A DNA stretch of 64,000 nucleotides, taken from NCBI RefSeq assembly GCF_032854445.1, contig NC_088302.1:23631788-23695787 (forward strand), given 5' to 3'. The stretch comes from Liolophura sinensis. Its lineage: Eukaryota > Mollusca > Polyplacophora > Chitonida > Chitonidae. Positions 3,512-54,700 of the stretch are shown piece by piece; the stretch's first letter is position 1; each line of letters begins with the position of its first letter. Under the pieces are notes generated by a model, which saw only the letters and a program-made list of their open reading frames with translations, did no database searches and was not told the origin of the DNA. The translations under genes and the position numbers were made by a program.

Positions 3512-3683
3512 TAATTTACTTATTTGATTGGTGTTTTACGCCTTGCTCAAAAATATTTTACTTATACGACGGCGGCCAGCATTATGGTAGGAGGAAACCG
3601 GGCAGAGTCCGGGGGAAACCCACGACCATCCGCGGATTGCTGTCAGACCTTCCCTCCTTTGGCCGGAGAGGAAGCCACCATGA
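3512..3683 (-). mobile_element. Family 1 SINE, head lost
   Basis: Tail and body are well preserved (ACGACGGCGGCCAGCATTAT, GGAAACCGGGCAGAGTC); the copy stops at the start of the head. It lies in the first intron of gene C. Confidence 0.85.
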
Positions 3684-4169
3684 TATGTCAACTGACACAG
3701 AATGCCTATATGTATGACATTTCAAGGTCATGTTTGGCTTTCTATCTGAAGTAAACACAGATGAGTTGTCGTCCAGATAGTTAAGCTACCGGGCAGTCAG
3801 CCAATCAATCAGTCAAACTGTCAGTTAGCTAATTACTCCGCTAGTCATTCGGTCAGCCTGCCCGGAAGCCATTCCACCCGTCAGTTAATCAACCTCTCAA
3901 ATCGGTCAGTCACTGTGAAAGAGAGTCGTCGAATCAACCATAGAGTCAGTCAGCCACCATCATAATTAATTTAGTCGGTTAATTAATTGGTCATATAGTC
4001 GTTGATTTGCCATTTCAGCAACGCGGATTGTTTGTGGCGGATTATACAACTCTTGTGGTGTTGTTAAACTTCAGGTCGAAACTTTCCAGCTTGACGGCAA
4101 CACTGGAGACTGCAATTTCGACTATCTTGAGTTTTTGGACGGTAAACAATTTTAATCTTTTTCTTTACC

Positions 4170-5140
4170 TATGTCCGTTTTTTCTTTTTTACACCTTTTT
4201 CCTTCATTCTTTCTCCTGTTCTCTGCCCGGTTTTCTCTACTGCCTGCCCTGTCATATAAACCGCTTTCAGTTTTTTCTCCCTCTTTCCAGATTTTATTAC
4301 CCCTGCCCACTTTTCCTCTCTCTTTACCTGACTTTCAGCCTCTATCCTCCATCTGTGTCCTGTTTTCCCCACTCTAAGTACGGTTTTCCTCTCTCCCTGC
4401 CTGATTTTCAGCCTCTATCTTCCATCCGTGTCCGTGGTTTCTTCACTCCCTGCTCAGTTTTCCTCTCTCTTACCTGACATTCAGCCTCTATCCTCCATCT
4501 GTGTCCGGTTTTCCCCACTCTTAATGCGGTTTTCCTCTCTATCTGCCTGATTTTCAGCCTTTGTCTTCCATGTGTGTCCGGTTTTCCCCACTATACGTGC
4601 GGTTGTCCTCTCTCCCTGCCTGATTTTCAGCCTCTGTCTTCCATCTGTGTCCGGTTTTCTCCACCCTAAGTGCGGTTTTCTTCAAGCCCTGTCCGGTTTT
4701 ATCCTTCCCTACCCTACCCCTCTACTTCTTTGAGGGTTTCCTCCATCCCTATACCTGGTTTTCTCCACCCGCTATTCTAACCCTTCTGTTCGGGTTTTTA
4801 CACCCACTGTTCATATTTCTCCACCCTCAGTCCGGTTTTCTCCACTCTTTGTCCGGTTTTCTCCACGCTTTGTCCGTTTTTTTCCACCCCCTTTTCACGT
4901 TTCTCCACCCTCTATTCAGGTTCTCCAACATTTCTGTAGGTTTTTCCACTGTGCCAACTTTTGCCCACCCCAATTTGGCTCTCTCCATCACCCTCTACTC
5001 ACAGCCAGTTTTTCTAAAAACCCATGCATGGCATTTTCCACTCACACTCTGTTTTCTCAACCCGCTGCCTGGGTTTTTCTCTGGCCTTTTACAGGTTTTC
5101 TTCACCCCCTGCCCGTTTCCCTCTACACTCTGTCCGATTT
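4170..5140 (+). repeat. Polypyrimidine minisatellite, about 74-bp then shorter units
   Basis: Almost only C and T on the plus strand. At about 4330-4690 a unit near 74 bp recurs (TTTTCAGCCTCTATC, CATCTGTGTCCGGTTTTC). From about 4690 to 5140, shorter units built on CGGTTTTCTCCACCC dominate. It fills the intron between gene C CUB exons 2 and 3. Confidence 0.8.
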
Positions 5141-5877
5141 CATTCACCGGTGAAATTGGCCGTCGTCCTCTCGGATGTGTATCATATTCTTTAGTAAAAA
5201 ATATAACCAAGTTTATTCATATTAAAACTGTTAGTAGATCGAAACTTTGTTAATTATTATTGTGACATTTCTGCTGTAAGCCTATTATATATAAATACTT
5301 TGATATTATTTAAAATAAGCGTATATTATTATTTTATAATAACATACCCTTTATATCATGCTTTTATATCATATTCTTATAAGCGCAAGTATATATTCAA
5401 GAAAAATATTTTCCTTGCTTTTGTCGCTTTTTTGTCGGTATCTAGCAAGAAAAAATTAAAAGATTTTCATTGCTTTCGTCAGAAGCTTGGTGGAAACAAT
5501 ATAAATATTTTCATTGCATTCGTCACAGGTTTTAGAGCATCTGACAAGAAGATAAGTCGATGGTGTGCTGATAGTATTGTCAGTGCCAAGTCTGGCATTA
5601 CTCTTGTATTCCATTCGGATCGTCACTATACGGAAGAAGGATTTAAACTGAGATACATTTCTGCACACGGGGTAAAAGAAGTTTAAGGTAAGAACTGTTA
5701 TAGTAAACGATTGCATGCTTTTGCAAAGGCAAGGAGACAAAGTATATATTTATTGCTTAGTCCATTTATCGCCTCTTTCTCAGCCATATATTTTCGTAAG
5801 ATCACGCTACAGTGTCCCCTTGTAGCAATCCAGTTTAAAGTAAAACAAAATTTAAATGTTAAGTATGGTTCATCACA

Positions 5878-11360: not shown

Positions 11361-14300
11361 TTATACTACATCGGTGTCGCCATGAGCAGGGGTTCCCGTA
11401 TCTGATGATGAGTTAGTGGTAGTAGCAACATTGCTTGAACTTTCGACATTACCATTATTGGATCTTTGAACATTGTCATTGTTAGAGCTTTGAATATTGT
11501 CTTGGTTGAAACTTCGAACGCTGGCGTTGTTGGAACTTTCAACAATGTCGTTGTTGGAAAGGTGAGCATTGCCGTTGGCGGCACTTTGAACATAGCCCTG
11601 AATATCAGCAGATGTCTCCTCGTACGGTGGAGGGGGCGACAACTCTAACCCCCTGTCCAAGTCAAAAGCTGGATTGTCATGAACAACTTGCGGTGATGTC
11701 TCCGGAATCGGAGTCACCGGAGTTAATTCTATAGCAGAATATGGTGGGGGTGACCCGTCCAAATCTCTCCTACATTCCTCGTACGAGGGCGGGTACACGG
11801 GCAAAACGAATATATCCCTGGCAGTAGACGACCTCCTGGTTTGATGGGAAGCAGTTCTTCTCTGCCGTCGTATGAATATAGAACTGGCCCGTTGGCGTGG
11901 CCTCTCCATACATTTACACCAGCGGATTTTGTTGAGAACGACGCGAATGGCTAACATGGAACCGCAGAGGATAGCCAGAACCAGCACCAGGTAACCTATC
12001 ATACCCATCGTTGTTATCCCGCGGCTCGACCGTGCGTCTTCCCGAAAATTTTCTGCAAAACGGACAAACAGATTTCTTAGAAACAGTCACAACTTTTCCA
12101 TACCTCATCACAGTCTTTTATCCAGCGCGCAGAGCTGCTCGATTTCAATGCAGTTGTAAAGAACACTGTTTGTTTCAAAAAAAATGTCTCCCCCAATCGA
12201 GCTTCTTCGTTAATCCTTCAGCAGCACGTCATTGTTTTTGTGCAAGCATGCCTTGGGATTTTATGCTCTGTTCCTTCAAACATACATGTACTCCGGCCAT
12301 TTTTAAAAGCTTCTTTCTCTAAATCATGGTTAACGGAAACAGTTATAACGTCAGAAAGGGGAGGGTGGATCCAGCTGAATCCTATTTGAAATTTTATGAA
12401 ACGTTTTGCTCAGAAAAAGGGGAAACATTTTCTTTAAACTAAATAAGCACCATATATACGGCTGGTGTAAACAAACATTCTGCTTCCGGAAGCATTGCTT
12501 TAGCTGAACATGTCCCCTACCGATTTGGAATAATAGCTGTGCAACAGAACCAAATGGGGAATAATTTTGTTAGTCTATAACTCGTCTCGGTGAAGCCACA
12601 TAACATATTTTGAATTCATTTCGTAAACTGATTCCTTATGGACTCAGCGGGGTGCATACGAGAGGTAAATTTATAGATTTCTCCAATACCAGTAGGTCAT
12701 TAAAACAGAGTCCTTTGTTTTATTATAGCGAAAGAATCTTACCTGCAGGTCCGGACACATACGATATCTCAAAACCGGAAGTACCATAGGATCTGTCGCT
12801 GTGAAACACAACGGTAATGGTGCTCCCTGAGCTGACGAAAGAGGGCTTCGAGTCACCACACCACTGGCCCAGCTTCTTGTGGAATGTCCCTAATCCTGAA
12901 ACCAGATGGTACGATTATATAATTAATCGCAGTATACTGATAATGTGGAAGCAACAACCATGAATCCAGGTTGAACGTTTATAAAAATAATCACAGTATA
13001 TATACTGATACCGTGAATGCCCTCATCCTGAAACCAGATGGCACATTTATGGAAATAGTCTCAATACGCTGATACCGGGGAGGCCCTAATTCTCTAACCA
13101 TAGGGTAGGTATCCGGGAGGCTCCTATACTGAAGCCAGATGACACGTTTATGAAAATAGCCACGGTATGCCTAAATACATGGGAGACCATAATCCTGATA
13201 CCAGATGGCATACATTTACAAAAATAGCCACAACATGATGATAGCGGGAATAACGTTGATACAGGGGAGACTCTAATCCTGACACCAGATGGTACATTTA
13301 TAAATTAGTCACATTATGTTGATACAGGGGAGACTCTAATCCTGACACCAGATGGTACATTTATAAATTAGTCACATAGTGTTGATACAGGGGAGACCCT
13401 AATCCTGACACCAGATGGTACATTTATAAATTAGTCACATAGTGTTGATACAGGGGAGACCCTAATCCTGACACCAGATGGTACATTTATAAATTAGTCA
13501 CATAATGTTGATACAGGGGAGACCCTAATCCTGACACCAGATGGTACATTTATAAATTAGTCACATAATGTTGATACAGGGGAGACCCTAATCCTGACAC
13601 CAGATGGTACATTTATAAATTAGTCACATTATGTTGATACAGGGGAGACCCTAATCCTGACACCAGATGGTACATTTATAAATTAGTCACATAGTGTTGA
13701 TACAGGGGAGACCCTAATCCTGACACCAGATGGTACATTTATAAATTAGTCACATAATGTTGATACAGGGGAGACTCTAATCCTGACACCAGATGGTACA
13801 TTTATTGATTAGTCACATAGTGTTGATACAGGGAGACCCTAATCCTGACACCAGATGGTACATTTATAAATTAGTCACATAATGTTGATACAGGGGAGAC
13901 TCTAATCCTGACACCAGATGGTACATTTATAAATTAGTCACATTATGTTGATACAGGGGAGACCCTAATCCTGACACCAGATGGTACATTTATAAATTAG
14001 TCACATAGTGTTGATACAGGGGAGACCCTAATCCTGACACCAGATGGTACATTTATAAATTAGTCACATAATGTTGATACAGGGGAGACTCTAATCCTGA
14101 CACCAGATGGTACATTTATTGATTAGTCACATAGTGTTGATACAGGGAGACCCTAATCCTGACACCAGATGGTACATTTATAAATTAGTCACATAATGTT
14201 GATACAGGGGAGACTCTAATCCTGACACCAGATGGTACATTTATTGATTAGTCACATAGTGTTGATACAGGGGAGACTCTAATGCTGACACCAGATGGTA

Positions 14301-17300
14301 CATTTATTGATTAGTCACATAGTGTTGATACAGGGGAGACCCTAACCCTGACACCAGATGATACGTTTATAGAATTGTTAGGGTACTCATATTGGTGAAA
14401 TCAGACTGTTCTGGACTGTTCTCACATATTGTTGTTGTATGTTTTTTTTCCCTTAAAACGTCACCGCCATTGTTTAAGACCAAATCGCAGAATTTTTCAT
14501 TTGTTGTTATGTTTCTTGCTATTGGCTGTTGTTAAATGTAAACTTCTTGATGCCCGTATACAGTTGAAAAAGATTTTAAAAAACGATGTAAAAACAGATA
14601 TTATGAAACTTATTTACTGTTTGCTGAGAATTTGATCCTGCTGAGTAAAAAAGACTAATAACACACATTCACGTGAATCCGGTAGAGGACTTGTGTCATG
14701 TAGAGAAGCTCGAACAAGAGAAGACAGATATGACAGATTCGCAAATCTTCATGAATTTTTCTTCACTGCAAAGAATAGATCGGATGTTATCCGAAGGTGA
14801 AGTAGAGGTGTGACTGAACAATTTGCGTCTTACAGAAGACGCTCAGGTCGACTCACAAGGCGTAATGGTAATAGCACTCGTCCAAGCGAAGCGATGCCTA
14901 AAGGCAGTATATTTCGGCATAGATTTTGTTCGCAAATAAAAAACACACCATGTACATTTTCATGGTCCAGGAAACACCTTATTCGGAAAAAAAGAAAAAA
15001 TAACAACTACCACCAGCGCACCCCAGCTAAAATTAACGCATTGTAATAATTGCATTATAAATTACTACAATATTAAGTCATAAAATAGTGTCACATAGCA
15101 TGATATATTCTTCCTATATAACATACTTACCATCATAAACCGCCACATAATCAAAAGCACAACCGTATGCCCCAAACTGTTTCTCCAGTTTGGAATTCTC
15201 CACCTCCACTTTGATGACATCATCGGTTGATGCCGCTGAGATTCGCCACACACACATCGCATTACTGCAAAAGGATTGATTGATTCAATTATAGAAAAGT
15301 ACCAGTATGTCCATATGATTTGTTTTTAACGCTGTGCCCATGAATTGTTTCACCTTTAGGGGGGGGGGGGGGGGGTCGGCAACAGTCAGTTTTATGCATA
15401 GAAAGGCATACAAATATATTAATATTCTTGGTCGTCTCATTTCCTTCAAATAACAATTATTTATTACACATTATCTTGACCACAACTAAGACTGTTGAAC
15501 TTGTCAGGCATGGGATGGTTCGCAGAGTACAGAACATGCGACTACACGTTTGTTGACATATTCGTGAATGTAAAGGGTGTACGTGCCGGGTCATTTTGCA
15601 GGTCTGTACGGTTCACTGATTAAATTAAAAAGTGTTATAAGAGTTCAGTGTATATAAGCGTTTTTTTGACTCGTTTAGCATATCTCACCTCTGAACACAT
15701 GAGGTTAATTGTTGACGTTTTTTGAAATTAGATAATTATGTTTTCTGCCATGTGTACGATGTCATTTAAAGGAGAAGAAAATTTAAATATCAAAGAAATA
15801 CCATTGAAAAGAGTACGCATTTCGTCGCAGGTGCATGCCATAAAAAATTCTAATATCTACCTCAAGTTGATAAATTCTAAAATAAGTCGGCGCCAAAATC
15901 TGACGTCATCTCGTCACTAAATGTATTTTCTTCCACTTGTCTGAATGTGGAAGAAGATAGATTTAATAAATGTATCTTTGTCTAACGGGAGTATCTTTTT
16001 TGTGGTGAATGACTTGCACTGAAACTGAGTTAGTTTACTCTGAGGCCTATGGATGATCTTGTCTAATTCAGTGCCTAATCAGAATCCAATAGATCTACAC
16101 CGAAATATTTGTGAGATTATAAAGCACATCAAAAGCACAATCACATACAGGTGGATGATCGGAAAGATTATTTCCGATACAATGATCAAAAGCTTAACCA
16201 CATACATATGGGTGTTCGGAAAGCCCATTTTCGGCACAATGATCAAAAACACGGTCACATACAGATGGATGGTCGGAAAGACCATTTCAGATACAATTAT
16301 CAAAAGCACAATCACATACAAACTCTGTGGTACAAAGATCCATTTAAGGCCATTTAAAACCTAAAAGGTCATTAGTATATAATAATATCAGAAGGATCTT
16401 GTGGTTATTTCACTCACGAAATTGTATACGTGAAAATAAAAACTCCAAACTACTATCAAGGCTCACTGCAACTAATCGTGCGTCGATTGCAACCGTGTAT
16501 GTGTAAGTGTGAAATCGGTGATGCTTACACGGTCTTCGCCCTGGGATTGGTTGAAATTCCATTTTTCAACTTTCAAGGGCAAAAATTATTTTATTGGTTC
16601 TTCTTCCACACCATACTCAAGATGGCGATCAGTTTTATGGGTATAGGAAACCGGTAGGTCCGTGGGCTTTCCGAGGGCATTCGGAATGGTTAGATGCAGA
16701 CAAGTATAGACAACTGCTGAGTGTATGCAATTACCTCCAGAGAGTTTCGTTGTTAACTCATGGACTAAAACTGACTTACTTCGGGTATTTGTCCGGGTAA
16801 TTCGGTGAGGTAAAAGTTTTCTTCTTATTCGTCACAGCCGTCAGATCTACAGGACTGGTACATGGGTCTGAAAAAACAAAAGACAATGTCGTGAAATTAC
16901 ATTGTCGTATAATGACTGCAAAATAAGAAGAATAGTCCCCCAGACACTTATAAATATACATACACAGTTACGTATTTATTTCGTTTATTTACTCACCGGT
17001 ATCAATTTTATTTAATTGGTGTTGAAGGTCGTGATCAAGAAGATCCATTTTTACGGCGTGGATCAGGTTTATGGGTGGAGGAAACGGGGGCCGGCGTGGA
17101 TCAGGTTTATGGGTGGAGGAAACGGGGGCCGGCGTGGATCAGGTTTATGGGTGGAGGAAACGGGGGCCGGCGTGGATCAGGTTTATGGGTGGAGGAAACG
17201 GGGGCCGGCGTGGATCAGGTTTATGGGTGGAGGAAAAGGGAGCGCCCCGAGCGCACCCACCTTTGTTCAGGACCAACCGCCTAACTTAATGCTGCGGCCG

Positions 17301-20300
17301 AAATGGCGACAACCGGACTCGAGCACGTGATTTCCTAAGTCAAGGGCCTCTATAGTCGTAACGAGCCAGCGTTGTATAACTATCAGCGATAACGAAGCCA
17401 CCCCCACATCCCCGCGCAAGATGAAAATAATTTATGAAGTAATTTATGCAATACACAGTCTATGAAGAAGCCCATTTGTTTATATTAATTATACGCGTGA
17501 CACGAAAAAGGCTTCCAAGTGGATGAGTCGACAAGTATCTCAAAATACAAAATAATAATATAATTTATTTATTTATTTGATTGGTGTTTTACGCCGTACT
17601 CAAGAATATTTCACTTATACGATGGCGGTCAGCATTATGGTGGGTGGAAACCGGGCAGAGCCCGGAGGAATCCCACGACCATCCGCAGGTTGCTGCAAGA
17701 CCTTTAATAATAATATAATATACAAATAGTGAGTGACCCATAACTGTAAAACACACAAGCAGTGAAAGGTCCATAAATACAAAATACATAATCAGTTATT
17801 AGTTCATAAAGACAAAATACACAATGAGTGAGCTGCTTTTAAAATATGAAATACACAATTGGCAGAACACACAATTCATGATCATCCAGTAATATACTTA
17901 TTTGAACGGAGCATTTGAACGTAGATGAAAAAAGGACGACAGTTGATGTTACCCTTGTTTCGTGTGACCATTATAATATCGGGTTAATTTCCCACTTGAT
18001 CATAACTGCAGTATAGAAGCTTTTAATTAATTCCTGCTGAAGTATGGAACTAGTTGTCGATCTCATTTTTGAGCGGTATTACTATTACCATCCCAGGTCA
18101 GTACGACTCTACAGCTTTTGTGTGTATCGGTACATCATACATACACCAGCAGAGTGGCTGTGCTGGGTGAGTACAGGTAAATCTTGTTTGTGCGACAGTA
18201 GTTCAGGCCTGAAAAAAACCCACAGCAAAGTGGTCCACATGCCTGGGTTATGTTCGCAGGAAATAGACTGTAAAAAATAAAACCTGACCTTTAAACTTAT
18301 TATCGAAAGACACATAAAATGTGAGGACTGTGTTAAAAAGGCGAAGAAGAGGCGACATGTAGAAGAGGCGACATGTACGTAGGCCTGCTGGCTTCCTCTC
18401 TGGCTGTACGTGGGTTTCTTTTGGTTTCCTCCCACCATAATGCTGGCCATCGTCGTATAAGTGAAATATTCTTGAGCATGGCATAAAACATGAATCAAAT
18501 AAATAAATAAATATACGTAGGCCTATTGTTCACACACTGGGATACATATATATACTTATCGTCTGCAGCCAAATTTTTTGGGCTTTCCAAAAAGTAATAT
18601 GTTGTTACGAAAACCGAAAAGAAAATCCAGACTGCCTGCAACCAATATAATATTACCTAATGGTCACTTGTTCATACGTGTGTTCTGCTGTCAACGGATG
18701 TCCTTCATTCCATCAGCTTTCAACACTAACAACTGAAGTCACCTCTTAACAGTGTCAACCTCCGTGACCTCAATACTGTCAACCTCAGTCACCTCTTAAT
18801 ATTGTCAACCAAGTCACCTCTATACTGTCAAACTCAGTCATCTCTTAATAACGTCAATCTCAGTCACCACATAATAATGTCAACTTCCGTCACCTCTGTA
18901 CTGTCAACCTGAGTCATTTCTTAATAATGCCAACCTCAGTCACCTCCATACTGTCAACCTCAGTCACTTCTTAATAATGTCAGCCTCAGTCCTCTCTTAA
19001 TGTCAGCCTCAGTCCTCTCTTAATATTGTCAACCTCCGTCACCTCTATACCGTCAACCTCAGTCATCTCTTATTAATGTCAACCCGCCCTGATCTCTTAA
19101 TAATGTCAACGTCCGTCACCTCTATACCGTCAACCTCAGTCATCTCTTAATAACGTCAACCTCAGTCACCACATAATAACGTGAACCTCAGTCATCTCTT
19201 AATAATGTCAACCTCAGTCACCTCTATACTGTCAACCTCAGTCACCTCTTAATAATGTCAATCTCTGTCCCCTCTTAATAATGTAAATCTCCGTCACCTC
19301 TTAATAATGTCAATCTCCGTCACCTTTATACTGTCAACCTCAGCCATCTCTTAATACTGTCAATCTCTGTTACCTCTTAATAATGTCAATCTCCGTCACC
19401 TCTATAGTGGCAAACTCAGCCATCTCTTAATAATGTCAACCTCCCTCACCTCTTAATAATGTCACTCTCCATCACTTCTATACTGTTAACCTTAGTCATC
19501 TCTTAATAATGTCAACCTCAGTCATCTCTTAATAATGTCAACCTCCCTCACCTCTTAATAATGTCAACCTCCCTCACCTCTTAATAATGTCATCCTCCGT
19601 CACTTTTTAATAATGTCAACCTCCATCACTTCTTAATAATGTCAACCTCCGTCACTTCTATACTGTCAACCTCCCTCACCTCTTAATGATGTCACCCTCT
19701 TAATAATGTCAACCTCATTCACCTCTATACTGTCAACCTCAGTCATCTCTTAATAATGTCAACCTCAGTGATCTCTTAATAATGTCAACCTCCGTCACCT
19801 CTATACTGTCAACCTCAGTCATCTCATGTTAGCCCCAGTCAAGTCTTAATAACGTCAACATCAGTTACCTCTATACTGTCAACCTCAGTCATCTCATGTT
19901 AGCCTAAGTCACGTCTTAATAACGTCAACATCAGTTACCTCTTTTAATGTGAAACTGTCACCCTTTAGTACTGTCTACCTCGGACACCTCATTGTCAACA
20001 TTGGTTACCTTTACACTGTTAACTGCGGTGACCTCTATAATCTCTGGTCGCCTCATTTATTGTCAAATTTATTAGCCTCCTTGTATTGTCAACTTCCGGC
20101 ATCTCTTCATACTATCAACTCCAGCACCTATTTTTACTGTCAACTACAGCCACCTCTCTATAGTCGCAATCACCTGTTTATTATGTGAAACTCTATCCTC
20201 TATTTACACTGTCCTTGACCACCTCTTCCGTTTTCAACCTCGGTCATCTCTTTACACTGTCTTTTTCTGTGACCTCTATATATTGTCAACCTCTGGCACT

Positions 20301-26935: not shown

Positions 26936-28080
26936 CCTAACAAAACGATATCAGAGAGGAAATGCATTTTATGGATGTTTTGCAATTCTTTTATTTCCCA
27001 CCAAAACACGGGTAATTACGAACTTACACAGTTCACATTACTGGCATAATTATGCGAAAGGCCTATTATTTAAGTTACATCCCATATTAAAATAAACCAA
27101 CAAAAGCCATATTCTATAAAGCCGTGTTCAAAATTTGAACATTTGTGTCCATAGAGAGTACGTCAGAATGCAACACCGATAGTTCAAATATTTACTAATG
27201 ATGCATAAATCAGATTTATTTTTAGAACCAACACGGGTAATATGGCCAAGAGGGGTCACAAATCATAACGAATTAGTTCTTCAAAGTACACTATGTTACA
27301 ACTCCTTGGCGCCTTATTCAATAACAACTTATTTATTATTAACTTACACAGTCACCATCCTTCCCAACAGATGGCTATACATTATAGTTTCTTCCGACTA
27401 TTTCCAATATATTATCGGTTATAATTATATAAGTCATGACCATTTCCAATGAAGTACTTCCCGTTTTCCAAAAAAGGCGACTGTCATATTGGTAAACGGG
27501 ACAACGTCACATAAAAAGCCCCACTACAATAAATTTCACAGAACCTTGTGTCCAACACGAAAACCGATAACGCGAGATAGCGCGAGGTTTTGTTAGAAAA
27601 TTTCTCTCTCTCTAACGTTCGCTTTACATCCCTGTCGCCACAAGCAAACTTTGTGCAGAAATCTTGATCAACACCGAGGTCACATGGGTCACGGTGACGA
27701 GACAGGAAGTGATGTCAGAAAACACAAAAACTCAACTTTTGTGTCTGCTATTACTTCATACTCGTCCTATTTAGATAAAGTATCTACAACATGATCCCAA
27801 CCAATACATGAAGCAATTTTATAGCTGAATGCTGATTAAATAGCTCCGCGCGAGGGCACCAATAGTGAGGCTAAGCCTAAGCAAGCCGACGTAGGTCGCG
27901 AAGGCTCCAAAGTCAAGCGTGTCTAGAGGTGGCAGTGATGTAAAGCGAGCGTAAAGAGCGGCAAATGTCCTGTAAGGAGCGTGCAAAATGACAACCTTAC
28001 AACCCACACAACTAACGCCTCCACCCTCACCACCACCATCACCACCACCCTCAACCCCCACCCTCCGCATCATCAATCGT

Positions 28081-28254
28081 CTAGGAGCTCAGTTCACGTC
28101 CTCAAAGATCACCGGTGTCTCGGGATTTCCCATATCATCTAGGAGCTCAGTTCACGTCCTCAAAGATCACCGGTGTCTCGGGATTTCCCATATCATCTAG
28201 GAGCTCAGTTCACGTCCTCAAAGATCACCGGTGTCTCGGGATTTCCCATATCAT
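28081..28254. repeat. 58-bp perfect triplication at the end of gene B
   Basis: Three identical 58-bp copies at 28081, 28139 and 28197. The rightmost holds the last codons and stop of gene B; the other two lie in its 3' untranslated region. Confidence 0.95.
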
Positions 28255-31200
28255 CTAGGAGTCGGTTCTTGGAATTCACCGAAGCGATCGTGATGGTGGA
28301 GGAGCGGAGTGCCTCTCTGTGGGAGGGAGGGGGCGTGGCGGGCGACTCCATCCCGGCATTCAGGCGGCTTAACCGGCTCTCCACGAAGCGAACCGAGCCT
28401 TTGGGGGTCCGTGGAGGGGTCGTGCTCACGGCTGGAGAAAAGTTCTCCGGCGTGAAGGAGTGGGCCATCATGACTCTAGAATTACGGCCACTGGGCGGCC
28501 CAAACCGAGACTGAGGCCGACTATCCGTGAAGGGTTTCTCCGAGGGCACCACATCAGGCTTTCCCATGTTTCCTTGGGATTTTCCCATGTCCTCCTTGGG
28601 GTTTTCTACGTCCCCTTTGGTTTTTTTCTGGTCCGCTCTGGCGTTTTCGACGCCCGCTGAATTTTTTCCTTTGGGCTTTGAATTTCTTTTTTGGACGGAA
28701 ACCTTGGTGGTCTTTGGTCTGTTTTTGCAATAAACGAACAGCATATACCCCCCAAGTATCAGTAAAATTAACCCTGCAAGGCCCCCGATTACACCCCCGG
28801 CTATAGCCCCGCCTGATGGGCCAGTGTCAATGACGACCACAGGAGCTGCAGTGGTAGGTAGCTCGGCTGAAAAGGAAGAAGCAAAATTAAACCCCAGACA
28901 TCAATATGGTCTTACACACTCCAAAAATAGTCTCTTAATTTTCACAGAAAGTTTGTTATCTGAAAGATGCTAGAATGTATTCCGTTATTATAACAGAGTA
29001 TAATATGGCATCTTCAACATAACATCCGGTAGGTCTAATACGATCTTTACTTTGATTTAATACAATATTTGTGCTATATTTAACAGAATAATCCACTGCA
29101 ATAACAGAATGACGCAATTTTTTTTAGCATCAAACGAATAACAGATTTTCTGTTAAAATTGAACAAAATGTTTTTTGAGAGTAGGTATATAGTAGGATTT
29201 CTACAGTTTTTACGTTAATCGATATTACTGTTACAAATCTTCATTAATAAATGTATACAGTTCATCTTATGAAGGATAGGGGGTGATTACGCAGGAATAT
29301 CGAAATATATAGCGTAATTAGCAAGCTACTGGACATTATAAAAACCTTCTTCGTGGTAGATGCAACGGTCTCCATCGTAAAACAATAAACACTGGTTCTT
29401 TCTTTTTTAAATACCGCAATTGTATACCATGTCGTTACTCTCTGCATTGAACAATCAAATATTTTCCATAATTGCCAGTAAATGGCTCTAAGTCATCATA
29501 AATTGAATAAGGGGCCTCCGTGGCTCAGTCGGTTAGCGCGCTAGGACCCAGGAGTCTCTCACCATTGTGGTCGCTGTGAGTTCAAGTCCAGCTCATGCTG
29601 GCTTCCTCTACGGTCGTACGTGGGAAGGCCTGCAGCAACCTGCGGATGGTCGTGGGTTTCCCCCCAGGCTCTGCCCGGTTTCCACCCACCATAATGCTGG
29701 CCGCCGTCGTATAAGCGAAATATTCTTGAGTACGGCGTAAAACACCCATCAAATAAATTAATAATAAATACTTAAGTTGAATAAGCCATCTATCACTTCT
29801 TGTTGCATTACATTTTCCTTAGGAATAGTGATCGTTCATAAATTACATTTTAGACAAAAAAAATACTGTCCCATTCTTCAAAAAGAATGTACTAATTCAA
29901 ATAACCATCAAGTCGTAAATATGACATGCCAAGAAAGGCCATGGAGGGAAGAGAAAATTTTTTTTTCAAGGCTGAAGAGAAAAATATAATAATTAACATA
30001 GGGGTCAGCATAATGCACAAATCTAACTTAGTACCTGCCGCCATGTTTGTATTTTTGTTCCCATTTTCCACTAATACACAGGTAATTCCCACTACCACTA
30101 CTGTCTCCCACTACCTTACATCTCCTGCGGGTTGGGACAGTTGCAGGGATAGCACTATTCGTTGTGTTGTTGTTTTTTTTGTTTGTATGAATGTGTATAG
30201 CTTCTCTTTTTAAACTACATGTACATGGTGCTTTATCTTGTTTTGTATATATTCATGTATTTTTTTATTGGACTTTGAAGTATATGTGTCCTATATATTT
30301 GTTTTCTCTGCGAAGGCCTCGGGGAAGAACGGTTTCATTGGCCAAACTGACGAAACTACCTTCAATAAATAAAGATATTATTGTTATAAAGCTCATAGCC
30401 ATTGCTTTTTTCTTAAGAACAATTCACTTATAGGATGTCAGTTTCTTTTATGGGTGGAGGAAAAAGTGTCGAGAGCGAATTGTCGTTCCTTTTAGAAAGC
30501 GCCTGATAAACTAGCAAGTAACTGACACAGAAACTTTCATCCTAAAGAGCCAGTACGGTGCATATGTCAAAATTTCGATGAGAGCAAGTGAGTTCGTATG
30601 CAATGAAAACAATTAAAGAGTTTTTCGCATGTGGGCTGTCATTGGACTCCACCAAGGCGTCAAGAAACAGCAAACACCCAGTAGAGCCTTGGCTAATATT
30701 TTTGTCGAAAATGTTTCTCTCTTCAAAGAAGTATTTCCCCTTACATTCTACCGTTACGGATATATGCCACTTTTTACATAATTTCATAAACTTTTTATTG
30801 TGGTTACTTAATATTCTTGAGTTTTGGATTTGATTTATTTGATTGCCGTTTTACGCCATATGTATGTATATATGTATGTCTGTTTGTATGTATGTATCGT
30901 ACTTGTTTTACATCGCATACTCAAAAATACTTCACTTACACGACGGCAGTTAGCGTTATAGTGGAAGTTTTGAAAGTTTGTGCAAGTATACCAAACTGAG
31001 TTTCAAAACGAATCGAGGCACTCCGACTTCCTTAATCCATAAATCTGGTTGCCAACAAATAAATGAAAAATTCTTGAGCGTTGCTTTAAATCTGTAAATC
31101 AACGCTTTAAATAATAGTCAAATTAAAGCTTTAAATGAATAAACAAAGAATATAAATCTGTTGCGTTACACGAATTCCACACCAGACTTTGGCATACCTA

Positions 31201-42780: not shown

Positions 42781-45700
42781 TTATGCCTGTAAAGGTTCTA
42801 GACACCTCAATGCTCAAGCCTCAAAATGTTGCATGTTTATATTACATATAAGCACATACATTTATAGAAAAATTCTTAAATTTTATTTAAATGGTTTACA
42901 ATAAATTTGTAGCTTCTGGGTCACTGTGCAATTTATTCCTAATTACATGTAATCACACCCAAGCATTTTTCAAACCACAACATATTTTTCATAAATATCT
43001 TTCTCTTGGTAAAAAAATATGAATGCATAACATATACTACCAATCAAAATGCAGAACAAATATTATTACCATATATTAGTTCAATCAAACCAATAGACAT
43101 CGGCATCAGTGATCAATTTGCATTCAAAGACATATGTGCATGGTTAAAAGACACACCAACAACTGTATTTTAGGTTTACATAGCTTAACTACGTCAAAAG
43201 GTTGAGGAAAAATGCAGGCAAGTACTAATATCTACAGGGGGAAACATACATCATAGCACAAAATTTATACTCTAGATTTTGGCAAAAAGTTCATTTCAAA
43301 CTTGTCAAGCCATTATGAAATTTCTATGTTCGTATCTTGATGGCCCTGAGAATAACGGGCAGGCCTTAAAATAAGTGGCGAACACTCGTCTGTTACGCAT
43401 CGGTCACTGACATGCTAAATGTCAAGGACGATTCCCAGTTCTTCATAAAAATAAATAAATACATTTAAAAAATCTGTTAAAAGAAAGCACCATGAACTTC
43501 GCGCATTCTTGTATCACTGGCACTTATTGAAACGACCTCCAAAGACAGAAGAGTTTCTTGTGTTACCAGGGCAATATTCACATTTTACTTGTCGAGATGG
43601 CGAAATTCAGCGTGACATAGACTGCTTAATGACCGGAATACGTCACTAACAGATAATACCAATGATGTCAGCACATGACGAAACGGTCACAATGAAAACA
43701 TTTAAATCATGGAATTTCCACGGTGACGTTATTTACGATTTGAAAGAGAAGAATCAATTAACAACTCTTTGGTGCAGAATATGCTCAGAAGACATCGCTG
43801 ACATCTGTGGAGAAGCGAGAAAGAATCTCGGGACAGTCCCTCCCTACAAGCACTGATAAATTATCTGGATGATGTGAATTATATTCACAAAAGTAAAATA
43901 TTGAAACAGATCGAGGCAGGGTCACTACTAGTCCATCCAGATGGGCTCAGTGTGCTAATATAAAATTCTAACATTAATCATATTTTGTGATACAGTCCTC
44001 GCACAAATCTGCAAACTTTAACTCGATAGGAGACCCATTTCAGCGAAGTTCACGCTGGCGGCATGAAAGGTCCCTGCAGTAAAAATACAACTTCTTTTTT
44101 AAGCCTTTTTGGATTGGATTAAGAAGGTTGAAGTTGCAGACATCAATCAAAATATAATAGTTCTCGCTATGGATTGGATTAAGAAGGTTGAAGTTGCAGA
44201 CATCAATCAAAATATAATAGTTCTACTATTATAAAATATAATAGTACTACCAAATCTTTTGTAGTTTGAGCTGTCAGTGTGACTACCACAACAAGTTCAT
44301 TAGTTTCATAGGTGAGGATAGTAAATTAAATTTTATGCATTGTCAATGAGAGTTGAAGTAAAAAAAAATCAAGTCATGTATGTTAACAAAAGAAACATTA
44401 CACAAAGGGAGAGTTGTTTCAAAATTTTTTTGGGATTTCACATCCGGACAGGGAGCACAGGTTTGAATGTAAACAACAGTGGTGAATTATAATACAGAAT
44501 ACAAAATAGGATGTACAGGTTTTTGAATGTGATCCGCTACTGGCAATGAACTTTTGTTTTCCTGTTTGGCTGCATGGACAACAACGCGTGGTAACCTACA
44601 TGTATTTTTGTACATGGGTTTACCAACTACCAGAATGTGGTAACCTGTACATGGGTTACCATAGCCGAACCTTATTTGAAAGCCCGACAAGCCTTCCACA
44701 TCACATGCACCACAATATCATCAATGTCACTATCAATTTGCACGCTGTCAGTGATCATGTAGAGTAAAGTTCATAGGTCAGATGTAAGTATAAGTACTTT
44801 AAAGGCTGAAAGTAGTGAGATTTAAAGCATGCAGGTAACACCAAGTGTACATCACACACATGCTGAAGGGGAACAAACAGTGCTACACGCCGACAACAAC
44901 AACAACAACAGCTATGTGACAATCAAAATCAAAGTTGACCACAAGATCATGTGCGAGAGATCTGATGGGAAACAAGGTACCTTGAAATCTGTAATGGGTC
45001 ATATCGCTGAAGGTAAAAGGGTGCTGTAAGGGACTGCCATGCAAAGGTGGATATATACCTGAAAGTGCACCAGCCAAAACATGTGTTTCTTCTCTACAGG
45101 AAATTCATGTAACACTGCACCAAATTTACTACAACTATTGGCAGGAACTTCTTTCAAATTTACAATTGGTGACAAATTGGACACTTCTGGTTATCTGCCA
45201 CACATATAAGTGGCATAAACTGAGATAAATCTTTTAAGCAGCAATATAACCATTCCCAAAGGTGACCTAGTTCTCTCTTTTAGCATGTGTGTCAACAGCT
45301 CTTTTTTTCCTGCTGTTTTTACATTGGACTAAAATCTGAACAGGAGTTCCTTCTGTTATTCTGTGTACTGCTGAAGACCCTACTTGCTGAAGACGTCAAT
45401 TTCTCGCACCATCCTGCTTATCACATGTCCGTGAAAGTTTTGATTCACAGATTTCGTATTTTGATCGAAACAAGTGCGTATCTAAAATCGTATTCATACT
45501 TTAAACATCATCTTTGGTGTATGAAACTGTAACAGATATCTTACTGCAACACAGCAGAAAGAAAACTACAACAAGTAATCCCTCATACCAATCACAGCAT
45601 AAGCAGTTGTTAGTATGGAAGCGCTTTTCATGTTAAACCATATGCATACATGTACATCATCATGATCAATTTTTGAACATAAACGTAATTCCCCACTGAC

Positions 45701-48700: not shown

Positions 48701-51700
48701 GATTGGTGTCATGAGGACGAGACACCTGAGGTAATTGTCTCATGGATTTCAGGATCTCCATGGCTATGTTATGCGTGTCTGTCTCCTCAGGCTTTGTCCA
48801 CGCGCTGGGGGGTGATGTAAGATCCACCACAGAGGGTTTGCGGACCGGCTTCACAGCCAAATCCACAGCCAACCTTGAAGAGGACACAGTACTGTCCACC
48901 GCAACCTTGGGCTGTGAGGACCCAATGCTCACCCCAGCATAGTCTAACAGTGTCGGAATGTCCAAGGATGCGCTGCCTTTGTTTGTGGAGGACACCTGGC
49001 ATTTGGGCGGATCAGACATTAATGCCCCGACATGTCCTGGTTTTAACTCGCGCTGTATTTTGTCGTCGGTGGAACTCACCAACGCTATCGGCCCTGCATG
49101 ACCCGTCTCTAGCTTACTGGCTACTTCTGTGGGCCTCTGAAGGGCTCCATCCTGGGAGTTCCCAGCACTCCTTGTCCCTGAATCAGCTGCCTTGGTTATA
49201 ATCACAGATTTCTTTGGCCGAGCTCTACAGTGAGATAACAGACATTACATAATTAATGGCATTTAATTTCTCAAGAATATCAAAAAATGGTATTCATATT
49301 CATTCATTCATTATCCATGAACATTAAGACTGCAAAGGTAAAATTCAATGATTCTTTTTTCACCAAATGAATCTTGATCTATCCCCCTATAACAGGATGA
49401 AAGCACACTCAATTCATATATAAAGACTGTTTGAGGTACATTTCTCTGAACTTGCAGACATCAGCATGCCATCAAGAGACAAAACAGCACTGCTGTAAGG
49501 GGAAACCAACCTTATTTCAAGTGAGCCAACAACACAAAAAATCCAAAAATGACACAATACTAAAATCTACCTTATTATTTTGTCCCTATCTTTTTTTTTC
49601 TATGAATTTCCTGCTTTTCCAAAGCTTTCTGATCATGAAACTACATCCTCAACAGGAAAAATGAAGGGACAGTTCATGTTGTCCAAACATTTGATGATCT
49701 TTCAATCATAAAACAATAAGGCCTAAAGTTCCTGCAAAATCCAGACTATTTTGTATAATTTCTTTATCTGATTGGTGTTTTATGCCGTACTCAAGAATAT
49801 TTCACTTATGTGATTGCAGCCAGCAGTATGGTTTGGAAACCAACAACCATTCGTAGGTTGCTGCCAGACCTTCCCACATACAGTTGGAGAGGAGCAAATA
49901 TGAGTTGGACTTGAACTCACAGCGATCGCATTGCTGGGATGCTACTGGCCGTGCTACCCTCCTTGGCCACAGAGGCCCTAATTTCGTATGATGGCTACAA
50001 TGACTAAAAAAGAAGAGGACAGAGAAAGACAAATCAAATTTAGCACAAAATGGGAAAGTGTTACTGACGGGTTTGTCCATGGATCGTGTGCTGTTCGACT
50101 TTCCTTGTACAGCATTCTGAAAACAGACAGAAAACCATGACAGAAAAAACTTTCTATAACACGCTTACAAACAACAATCTGCTTATGAAAACCCATATAA
50201 ATAAAATAAATTATAAGTAGAAAAACAGGGATATATTTCAATGATTCCTCACACCATTGTGGAGTGAGTGAGTGAGTACTCTGGGTTTAACATTGTACTG
50301 ACAATGAAGGAATCCTTAGAGTGCATGTACTGTGCCTCCTTGTTGCAGGATGGGTTTCCACAGCTCTTTTACCTTGTTGCAGGACGGATTTCCACAACTC
50401 TAATCTAGTTCTGCTTCACTGAGACGCCTTACCGCAGGTAAGTAAGCCGCCCCGCCCAAGCCATTATACTGATACGGGTCAACCAGTCGTTGCACTATCC
50501 CCTTCATGCTGAGCTTTTAAAGTCTTAGGCGTGACTTGACCCAGGATTGACCCTGGATCTACGGCTCCCAAAGTGGACGCTCTACCAACTGTGCTATCGG
50601 GGCCGGTACACTTACACACACAGCATTGTGGAGAGAGTTGTGCCTTTGGGTAAACCCTCGAAAAAGTATAATTCTTAAAAAATGTGCATTTGATGTATAA
50701 TAAGGTCTATTTTGATTTATTATTTACTTTTTTGACTGGTGTTTTGTGCCATACTCAAGAATATTTCACTTATACATATATTATACCAGAAAGATACAAC
50801 ATTCAAGTTTTGCATAAATTTTGAACTAATATATTTGTACAAAATACAGATTCCAAACCAGACTCGAGTCAACTGTACCTTGTCTGCATCCATCCTTTTG
50901 GCCATATGGGTTTTATTTCAGCATCCAGGAAAGATTTCAGATACTCCTCCGCCGACTGTGTCCTGAGCTTAGAGAGGTCATATGTCTTCATCTTAATACT
51001 AACGATTTCACATAAGAGAACCCTGAAATGATTCAGAAAGCAATCACTGAAACACCAAATAATTCGGTGAGAAAACACTGATACACAAAATGATGCAGTG
51101 AGAAAACAATGATACACCAAATGATTTGGTGAGAAAACACTGATACACAAAGTGATTCGGTGAGAAAACACTGATACACTAAATGATTTGTTGAGAAAAC
51201 ACTGATACACCAAATGATTGGTGAGAAAACACTGGTGCACCAAATAATTTGGTGAGAAAACACTGATACACCAAATGATTTGGTGAGAAAACACTGGTGC
51301 ACCAAATGATTTGGTGAGAAAACACTGATACACCAAATGATTCGGTGAGAAAACACTGATACACTAAATGATTTGTTGAGAAAACACTGATACACCAAAT
51401 GATTGGTGAGAAAACACTGGTGCACCAAATAATTTGGTGAGAAAACACTGATACACCAAATGATTTGGTGAGAAAACACTGGTGCACCAAATGATTTGGT
51501 GAGAAAACACTGATACACCAAATGATTTGGTGAGAAAACACTGATACACCAAATGATTTGGTGGGAAAACACTGATACACTAAATGATGCAGTGAGAAAA
51601 CAATGATACACCAAATGATGCAGTGAAAAAACACTGATACACAAAATGATGCAGTGAGAAAACAATGATAGACCAAATGATTTGGTGGGAAAACACTGAT

Positions 51701-54700
51701 ACACCAAATGATTTGGTGGGAAAACACTGATACACTAAATGATGCAGTCAGAAAACAATGATACACAAAATGATGCAGTGAGAAAACAATGACAGACCAA
51801 ATGATTCGGCGAGAAAACAATGATACACCAAATAATTCGGTGGGAAAACACTGATACACCAAATGATTTGGTGGGAAAATACTGATGAACTAAACGATTC
51901 AGTGAGATAACGATCCAAAATGACGTACGGCAAAGTCAGGGAACTTAGGACATTTGGGTATTTTCAGACAGATTTGGGTATGTACAGCCAAAGTTCCCAT
52001 CAAGAACAATAAAGGCCATGTCAAACATGTACACTAGGCTTTAAGTGTTCCAAGAGAGCCAGTAAAAGTTTTCAGGAAATGTTATCCTGAAAAGGGTTTA
52101 AATATATTATTGTACAAAAGAAAAATCAGTTAATAGTAATTTTTTTACACATAAAGTCGTTTATATTTAAAAAAAACAAAAAAAGTGTTCAAATGTAGAG
52201 AGGCTATGTCCAAATTCCCTAGAGTGCAATTCTTGAGTACAGCAATCAAATAAATAAATCACAGGGCAGTTTACCTTGTCTCTGCACTCCACTCAAACTT
52301 TCTCCTCGGTGACATGTGTCTCTTCTTCTCCCCCTCAGATGCACTTTTCTCGTCATCACTCTCCGTCGAGGCGTCCTCACGGGTCAGCTCTTTACCCTCC
52401 AACAGCCTGAGTGACAAACAAATATCATATTTACACTCTGGGGTGGGATGACATATGACAGCAAGGGAGGTAACCCTCCATGATACAGACAATATCCCTA
52501 GCCCAGCATTGGTACCAAATTATAATCCACTCTGGATTATTCCAGTCAGACATACAAACATACGGGTTGATCCTTAGAGTTTGTAACAGAATGTTTGGCC
52601 AAAAATGGGTAACAGAGACATTGTTTCAGCTGTTACAAAATGTAAACAGAACATGCTATGGTGATCAAGTCAAAAGAAAGATGTTTTCTCCAATTGGTCC
52701 ATCCATGTGTTTAGACATAACTTTTAACCCTTCACAAGAACGGATTTGATTTAATAAACACTTCAGGGAGTCCTACAGGAGGATCCCATGCACTACAGGG
52801 GTATTACCACTTCTTCATTACAATGCCTCATTAGAAAGAAAGAATTTTCAATTTTTCTTCATTAAAACTTTTGAAGTGTGTACAGATGTGTACAACAACA
52901 ACTCTGTGATAACTCAGAAGGACAGAGGTGTGTCTAATGGAGCGTGTTATAATGAATTAAAGGTGTACTTTGTTATATTCTAGACTTATGCCTTGAATTT
53001 TTTTGAGTTATGAAGTTGGACAAAACAAGGATTCCTACCTGACTTGTGCAGCGAGGCGACACTCCTGAGCATGGCGCTCCAACTGAGCTGGCATGATGGA
53101 GTTTATTGCTGAAATCAACACCACGCCACACTATGATAAACCAACACCATAAAATAAGACACTTAGCCTCATTCATCAGATTATGTGTAACTGAATACTG
53201 TACATGCTTGTGGCATCCACATGCACTCTGTGCTCTGACCATCAGGTCTGTTTCTTGTGTGCTGGTGCATGTTGCTATCGTAACAGAACACGTAAATATA
53301 CAACTGGATCAGGTACAAATGTTCTAGCTTTAATTAATTCATTTATTTGATTGGTGTTTTAAGTCGTCCTCAAGAATATTTCACTTTTACAATGACAGCC
53401 AAAATTAGGGAGGTGAGAGGAAACCGGACAGAGCCCAAAGGAAACCCACAACCACATGTAGGTTGCTTGCAGGCCTTCCAATGCATGATCATTGAGGATG
53501 CCAGAATTTATTTATGTGATTAGTGTTTTCACACCATACTCAAGAATATTTCACTTATACTAAGGGAGACGGCATTATGGTGGGAGGAAACCGGGCCGAG
53601 CCCAGGGGAAAACACATGGCCATCTGCAAGTTGCTGCCAGCCCTTCCCAAGTAAGGCCGGAGAGGAAGGCAGCAATGGGTTGGATTTGAACCTGGATGCT
53701 AGAATTAGTTAGACTCACAGCGACCTCATTGATGACAGGTGTCATTGTGCTAGCATATTAGCCACTCAGCCAACGAGGCACCCTATTTCATTCACATTCA
53801 CCTTTCAATACAATGAACTTGTCAGGCAGGCAACATGTGCTTAAGTCTAGATAGGATTCTGTCCACCTCGCACAAAAGATTAAACACTAGCGTATTACGT
53901 AATATTTTACACAGAATGTAATGTGTACAAACACTCATGTTTTCATGTACATATTGAATTTTAGGTGTACAAAATTGCACCAACCAATGCGGCACATATA
54001 TTTCCAACCCTTCTTTAAAATGACTTCAAATAGAAACACCGACACAAAATAAAGTTTTAATTAACCGTCTATACTAAAACTGAGATGTCCAAATTTCCAA
54101 AAATGAGAGTAAGGTGCCCTAGAGGGAAACAAAAGACATATTTGGTGTTTTAGTTTGGGTCACTGAAAGGAAAATTCTGCATGTTCTAGTCTATGGTATT
54201 GTATTTCAAGATAATGAGACAGAATTAGCACTTCTTTAAAATGTTTAGCTGGTGTATAATTTTCGTTGAGTTCTGTATATTTACTGAGGCTTATTTTGAC
54301 AGGTTGCTTTCTATGATGTAAAGGATGAATATTCAGCTCACTGAATCATGACTGAGTTGAAGTAACTCGACAGTGTTCAAGGCTGACAAAAACTTTCCAG
54401 AGCCCTGTACTGATCATGTGGCTCACTCGGCCCATTCGGCTCACTGACAGCTGATTGAGTTCAAGGCTGACAAAAAACTTTCCAGTCCTGTACTGATCAT
54501 GTGGCTCACTCGGCCCATTCGGCTCACTGACAGCTGATTGAGTTCAAGGCTGACAAAAAACTTTCCAGTCCTGTACTGATCATGTGGCTCACTCAGCCCA
54601 TTCGGCTCACTGACAGCTGATTGAGTTCAAGGCTGACAAAAAACTTTCCAGAGCCCAGTACTGATCATGTGGCTCACTCGGCCCATTCGGCTCACTGACA

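Follow-up and report, generated by a model that had tools for sequence, protein, structure and literature searches.

Intron 3 of a CUB-domain gene in Liolophura sinensis carries, upstream of its 3′ splice site, a minisatellite in which every unit resembles that same splice site. The locus raises two questions: whether the array was copied from the intron–exon boundary beside it, and how the spliceosome would deal with a row of decoy acceptors placed ahead of the true one. We analysed both questions in a window of 64,000 nucleotides, a term that denotes the whole stretch of DNA under study.

Host gene and its intron 3

The host gene lies on the minus strand, and its exon numbers were taken over from a first-pass annotation of this DNA. 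The CUB domain is spread over exons 2–4 (Pfam PF00431, E 7.3e-24 for the joined exons), with its first part in exon 3 (15131–15264, minus strand; donor GTAAGT) and its second half in exon 4 (12743–12895, minus strand; followed by donor GTAAGA). Exon 5 (11361–12052, minus strand; boundaries from our own reading) contributes a hydrophobic, transmembrane-like segment and a proline-rich tail with what we take to be PPxY-like motifs. The top matches of the CUB domain in solved structures were cubilin, procollagen C-endopeptidase enhancer 1, and neuropilins, and the gene is predicted to encode a receptor-like animal membrane protein. Intron 3, the host of the array, spans 12896–15130 (minus strand; about 2.2 kb), from the GTAAGT donor after 15131 to the AG of the true 3′ splice site at 12896–12897. 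At this site CATCTGGTTTCAG is followed by the exonic GATTAGGG, the last intron base being 12896, and the intron is in phase 1.

Two CUB paralogues are neighbours in the same window, one on the plus strand at about 3.4–5.7 kb and the other on the minus strand at about 31.2–32.5 kb. Both contain an intron at the identical place and in phase 1, with boundary codons GAC G/GT and GAT G/GG, compared with GAT G/GA in the array gene (the slash marks the intron), and the array is absent from the homologous introns of both. The start of exon 4 aligned without gaps to the plus-strand paralogue. Its residues also aligned without gaps to three of the six distinct CUB domains compared from the structure matches, while the loop at this point is one residue longer or two to four residues shorter in the other three, so that the protein alignment lends weak support to an old boundary.

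Array layout and copy number

The homogeneous array occupies 13250–14376 on the minus strand and consists of 18 units, 16 of them 63 bp long and two 62 bp, each with an acceptor-like core. Tandem Repeats Finder returned the interval 13250–14376 with a period of 63, 17.9 copies, and 95% matches, together with a second, degenerate array at 12882–13057. The minus strand holds precisely 18 occurrences of CATCTGGTGTCAG, every one inside the array; the plus strand has none, even with up to two mismatches allowed. Between the array and exon 4 (12897–13249, minus strand) lie five diverged copies, of which three retain an AG (ending at 13195, 13129, and 13028), one is partial, and one has lost its AG. 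Aligned with the true boundary, the copy without AG, near 12960, reached a score of 52, where shuffles reached at most 31. The partial copy, near 13095, scored 32 against the array unit (shuffle maximum 23) and 24 against the true boundary, below the shuffle maximum of 26, and is thus supported only by its match to the array unit. Units, diverged copies, and the true site bring the total to 24.

Read in sense order, the units fall into nine types arranged as ABCDCEFCDCEFGGEEHI. The five-unit block CDCEF occurs as two exact copies in succession, identical neighbours (GG and EE) are also present, and the two outermost units at either end are of types found nowhere else in the array (A and B, H and I). 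Over positions −49 to +17, 17 of the 18 array sites were 92–100% identical to the reference array unit, and the 5′-most site, the upstream part of which is flank, was 75% identical; the four diverged copies measured ranged from 62 to 78%. Taken together, unit order and identities resemble the usual turnover of a minisatellite whose edges are old.

Relation of the unit to the true acceptor

Alignment of the array unit with the intron 3/exon 4 boundary gave a score of 61, compared with a maximum of 27 among 2,000 shuffles. Between −17 and +8, 10 of the 18 units depart from the true site at a single position, six at two positions, and two at three. A T to G change at −5 is common to all 18 units and is the sole difference in 10 of them. 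The exon bases +1 to +8 (GATTAGGG) are identical in 10 units, with one change in seven and two changes in one, and exon homology is firm for these eight bases only. Past +8, the copy near 12960 was borderline (shuffle p 0.05) and may keep more of the exon, and homology was not significant in the other four tests, on three diverged copies and the array unit. The first-pass annotation had derived the array from this boundary and had described it as extending from the true acceptor into intron 3 with the diverged copies nearest exon 4; both statements are borne out by the alignment score and by the positions of the AGs that the diverged copies retain.

Splicing potential of the decoy acceptors

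Upstream of the AG, the decoys are well equipped. A CTAAT motif stands at −30 in 17 of the 18; in the 5′-most decoy the motif is CTAAC, at −34 and within the flank. The stretch ahead of the decoy AG is free of other AGs for 36–55 bases in all 18, with CTAAY upstream. The true site has TTAAT, and the CTAAY of the decoys is arguably better. Outside the array, 41 of 6,910 AGs combined CTRAY, an AG-free stretch of 30 bases, and a core scoring 0.7 bits or more, which corresponds to 0.33 per kb of strand.

The cores were scored with an acceptor matrix built from eight acceptors of the three neighbouring CUB genes, a small and rough sample. In this eight-acceptor matrix the G at −5 drops the core from 5.1 bits at the true site to 0.7 bits in the array units, and the copy at 13028, with 5.7 bits, is the only copy to reach the level of the true site. 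The matrix places the true site fifth among the 92 AGs in intron 3, and in a leave-one-out analysis two of its eight acceptors scored −1.2 and −3.6, lower than the decoys. The decoys had been described in the first-pass annotation as near-perfect. Each unit is indeed a near-copy of the acceptor; with the change at −5, however, the decoys are probably weaker than the true site, a weakness that rests on the rough eight-site matrix. Among the 16 interior units, six columns vary within −45 to +11 and none within −23 to −1. As variable columns are few and blocks have been duplicated, we do not take this invariant segment as a sign of selection on the decoy core.

All 18 decoy reading frames reach a stop, after 14 codons in 15 decoys, 10 codons in two, and 43 codons in one. 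The earlier expectation that decoy use would end the reading frame therefore holds throughout, whereas its more specific form, a frame ending at the TAA within the unit, applies to 15 of the 18: the two 62-bp units end in TGA, and the 43-codon run starts from the unit beside the diverged copies. Since the splice junction of exon 5 is downstream of all decoy stops, decoy use would be destructive. Any leaky use would place a premature stop ahead of the junction between exons 4 and 5 and would probably lead to decay of the transcript or to a truncated protein.

The units also contain motifs of a type linked to the choice of splice site. In 11 of the 18 copies, positions +4 to +8 of the decoy read TAGGG (11 instances in the array), and UAGAG was counted seven times. 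The sequence UAGGGA/U is reported as a high-affinity site of hnRNP A1, with UAGGG as its core, and hnRNP A1 as acting in 3′ splice-site choice (PMC9634572). The hnRNP A1-type UAGGG motif may help to suppress decoys, although UAGGGA is present at the true site as well, so that the motif alone cannot discriminate the decoys from it. No GTRAG donor was found within the array, which would leave exon definition at the decoys without support. Poison cassette exons inside the array are likewise unlikely, given this absence of GTRAG; of the seven further donor consensus positions, three of 108 GTs match five and 15 match four. Two 126-nt stretches of two units each (13456–13770, minus strand) folded with z scores of −2.3 and −3.0, equalled by three and two of 200 shuffles, respectively, and the true site folds less well relative to its shuffles (z −1.1). 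In this part of the array, adjacent units are able to pair into a long hairpin; the effect is modest.

Comparison with known systems

Among earlier work, Canestro 2002 is said to be a study on Adh. Lancelet mirage minisatellites have been reported for Adh3, the globins BflGb6 and BflGb9, troponin C, and PGBD5 (PMC3087553, PMC3902484); the mirage minisatellite reading is given for Adh and troponin C and suggested for PGBD5 (PMC3902484). As these sources describe them, the lancelet mirages and the Liolophura array are alike in that an intron–exon boundary has been tandemly duplicated, the centre is homogenised, the edges are aberrant, and splice signals are present in many units. Three hallmarks of mirages recur here: the unit is homologous to a boundary of its host gene (61 versus 27 in shuffles and 33 elsewhere in the window), it contains both intronic and exonic sequence (+1 to +8), and its centre has evolved in concert with the edge units excluded (CDCEF twice; A, B, H, and I single). 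The Liolophura array differs in size, with 18 units and five old copies compared with six and three units reported for two BflGb6 haplotypes, and in unit length, which is 63 bp as against 150–160 bp in BflGb6, with 10–72 bp quoted for Adh3. A further difference from the lancelet mirages is that firm exon homology here covers only eight bases.

Other minisatellites resemble the array in part. Internal tandem repeats at exon–intron boundaries have been described in human duplicated genes and share with the Liolophura case a minisatellite expansion across a boundary (PMC2812944). Half of those repeats, however, are reported in coding exons, and the ones at boundaries can create new introns, whereas the Liolophura array is located in an old intron. 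The minisatellite of IFI6 (6-16, G1P3) also has units that function as splice sites (Turri et al. 1995, as cited in PMC4526556), but these are donor sites that are really used and yield three mRNA species. In the human ABCA7 intron 18 VNTR, an intronic array that likewise carries a splice-site signal inside its unit, the unit opens with a splice-donor signal, exon skipping correlates with array length, and retention of a single unit in one isoform is independent of length (PMC5954066). According to the same account, ABCA7 differs from the present array in that the signal is on the donor side, the unit is 25 bp, and effects on splicing and disease risk have been measured.

Functional readings of the array

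On the basis of the homology between unit and boundary, the presence of the intron in paralogues that lack the array, the order of the units, and a core of 0.7 as against 5.1 bits, we consider the array likely to be an intronic minisatellite of the mirage type, mainly passive and with weakened decoys. The decoys would then rarely if ever be used, the amplified core being weakened, and the array would be excised from the transcript together with intron 3. Judged from the sequence, silent decoys fit better than a tuning of the inclusion of the second half of the CUB domain, the role first suggested for the array, which is possible but unsupported.

A broader form of tuning, to which we assign a low probability, is that a length-dependent fraction of transcripts splices into or stalls at a decoy and ends in premature stops with decay, or in a truncated protein, so that array length sets the output of the gene. 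The CTAAY motif, AG-free stretch, and AG in all 18 units, the stop after each decoy, and the two genuine neighbouring acceptors that score lower than the decoys would agree with it, and the length-correlated exon skipping reported for ABCA7 would be a precedent. The change at −5 shared by all amplified units and the lack of GTRAG donors in the array argue against it, as do the lancelet mirages with AG/GT signals, which are reported not to disturb regular splicing (PMC3087553). Slightly less probable still, and offered as a conjecture, is a selective history in which splicing fidelity limited expansion: copies with a strong core (T at −5, as at 13028) stayed single, and only the copy weakened by G at −5 could multiply harmlessly. 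Under this conjecture the array would preserve traces of selection against decoy acceptors, with its length acting as a mild negative regulator of the gene.

Origin of the array

The boundary is probably older than the array and served as its template, judging mainly from the intron position shared with two paralogues. Whether the copies spread outward from the exon received a mixed answer: the local scores of the copies near 12960 and at 13028 favour such a spread and percent identity does not, identity to the true boundary being flat across copies (64–75%) with no gradient.

The reverse order, in which a dispersed mobile or satellite repeat inserted into the intron and supplied the acceptor, would suit a window that is rich in minisatellites and has dispersed repeats. 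We found no second copy of the unit in the 64-kb window, however, the best score among 8,294 75-base sub-windows outside 12800–14450 on both strands being 33 as against 61, and the intron position is conserved in two paralogues; an origin from a dispersed repeat is therefore improbable. Ratchet points require AG followed immediately by GT(A/G)AG, and a stepwise removal of intron 3 through ratchet sites in the array, which the repetition of acceptor-like sites within one intron might suggest, can practically be dismissed, as AG is directly followed by GT in none of the 18 units and the array lacks GTRAG.

For an array copied from its own boundary, we propose the following sequence of events. 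Within an old, conserved intron, a segment of about 65 bp (judged from copy spacing), reaching from the end of intron 3 across the acceptor into exon 4 by eight bases or more, would have been tandemly duplicated. Only the copy adjacent to the exon would keep the rest of exon 4 and so remain a working acceptor. The upstream copies would have decayed, after which a copy with G at −5 was presumably amplified, by slippage or unequal exchange with homogenisation, including the exact doubling of the five-unit block.

Other features of the window

The intron of the plus-strand paralogue that is homologous to intron 3 (4142–5528, plus strand) contains pyrimidine-rich minisatellites, with arrays at 4311–4949, and five 73-bp units with TTTTCAG or similar. 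A parallel mirage in this paralogue was considered and rejected: the units show no resemblance to the acceptor of that intron, and the four best matches to the unit outside the array lie elsewhere in the intron and not at its acceptor. In exon 3 of the same paralogue (4019–4141, plus strand), the reading frame shifts inside a conserved stretch, which would indicate a pseudogene or an assembly error.

Further tandem repeats include a 58-bp array of 3.3 copies at 28076–28268, overlapping the 3′ end of a long minus-strand frame (28205–28900) and sequence beyond it; a 60-bp unit present 1.9 times with 100% matches at 44110–44224, which would give 20 codons if translated; and a 31-bp array of 28 copies at 51045–51911, overlapping three long minus-strand open frames. 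DNA resembling AGCATTATGGTGGGAGGAAACC, or with similar translations, was seen in both orientations at about 3540–3690, 17600–17720, 18380–18520, 29600–29820, and 61380–61450, and these stretches may represent a short interspersed element. At 2769–2968 there are exactly 200 consecutive N, probably an assembly gap. The window contained no Rfam matches at gathering thresholds and no tRNA genes.

Significance

Arrays of this boundary-derived kind are already known, and what is new and notable here is the copy number and the uniformity. In the literature found, mirages in the splice-repeat sense are reported from lancelets (PMC3087553, PMC3902484). In a lancelet host the array would be close to expected; in any other host, it would add a further animal group to those in which boundary-derived minisatellites are known. 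With 18 uniform decoys upstream of one true site, the locus lends itself as a clean natural experiment on how the spliceosome passes over acceptors almost identical to the true one; the decoys have good branch-point-like motifs and share one difference from the true site, at −5.
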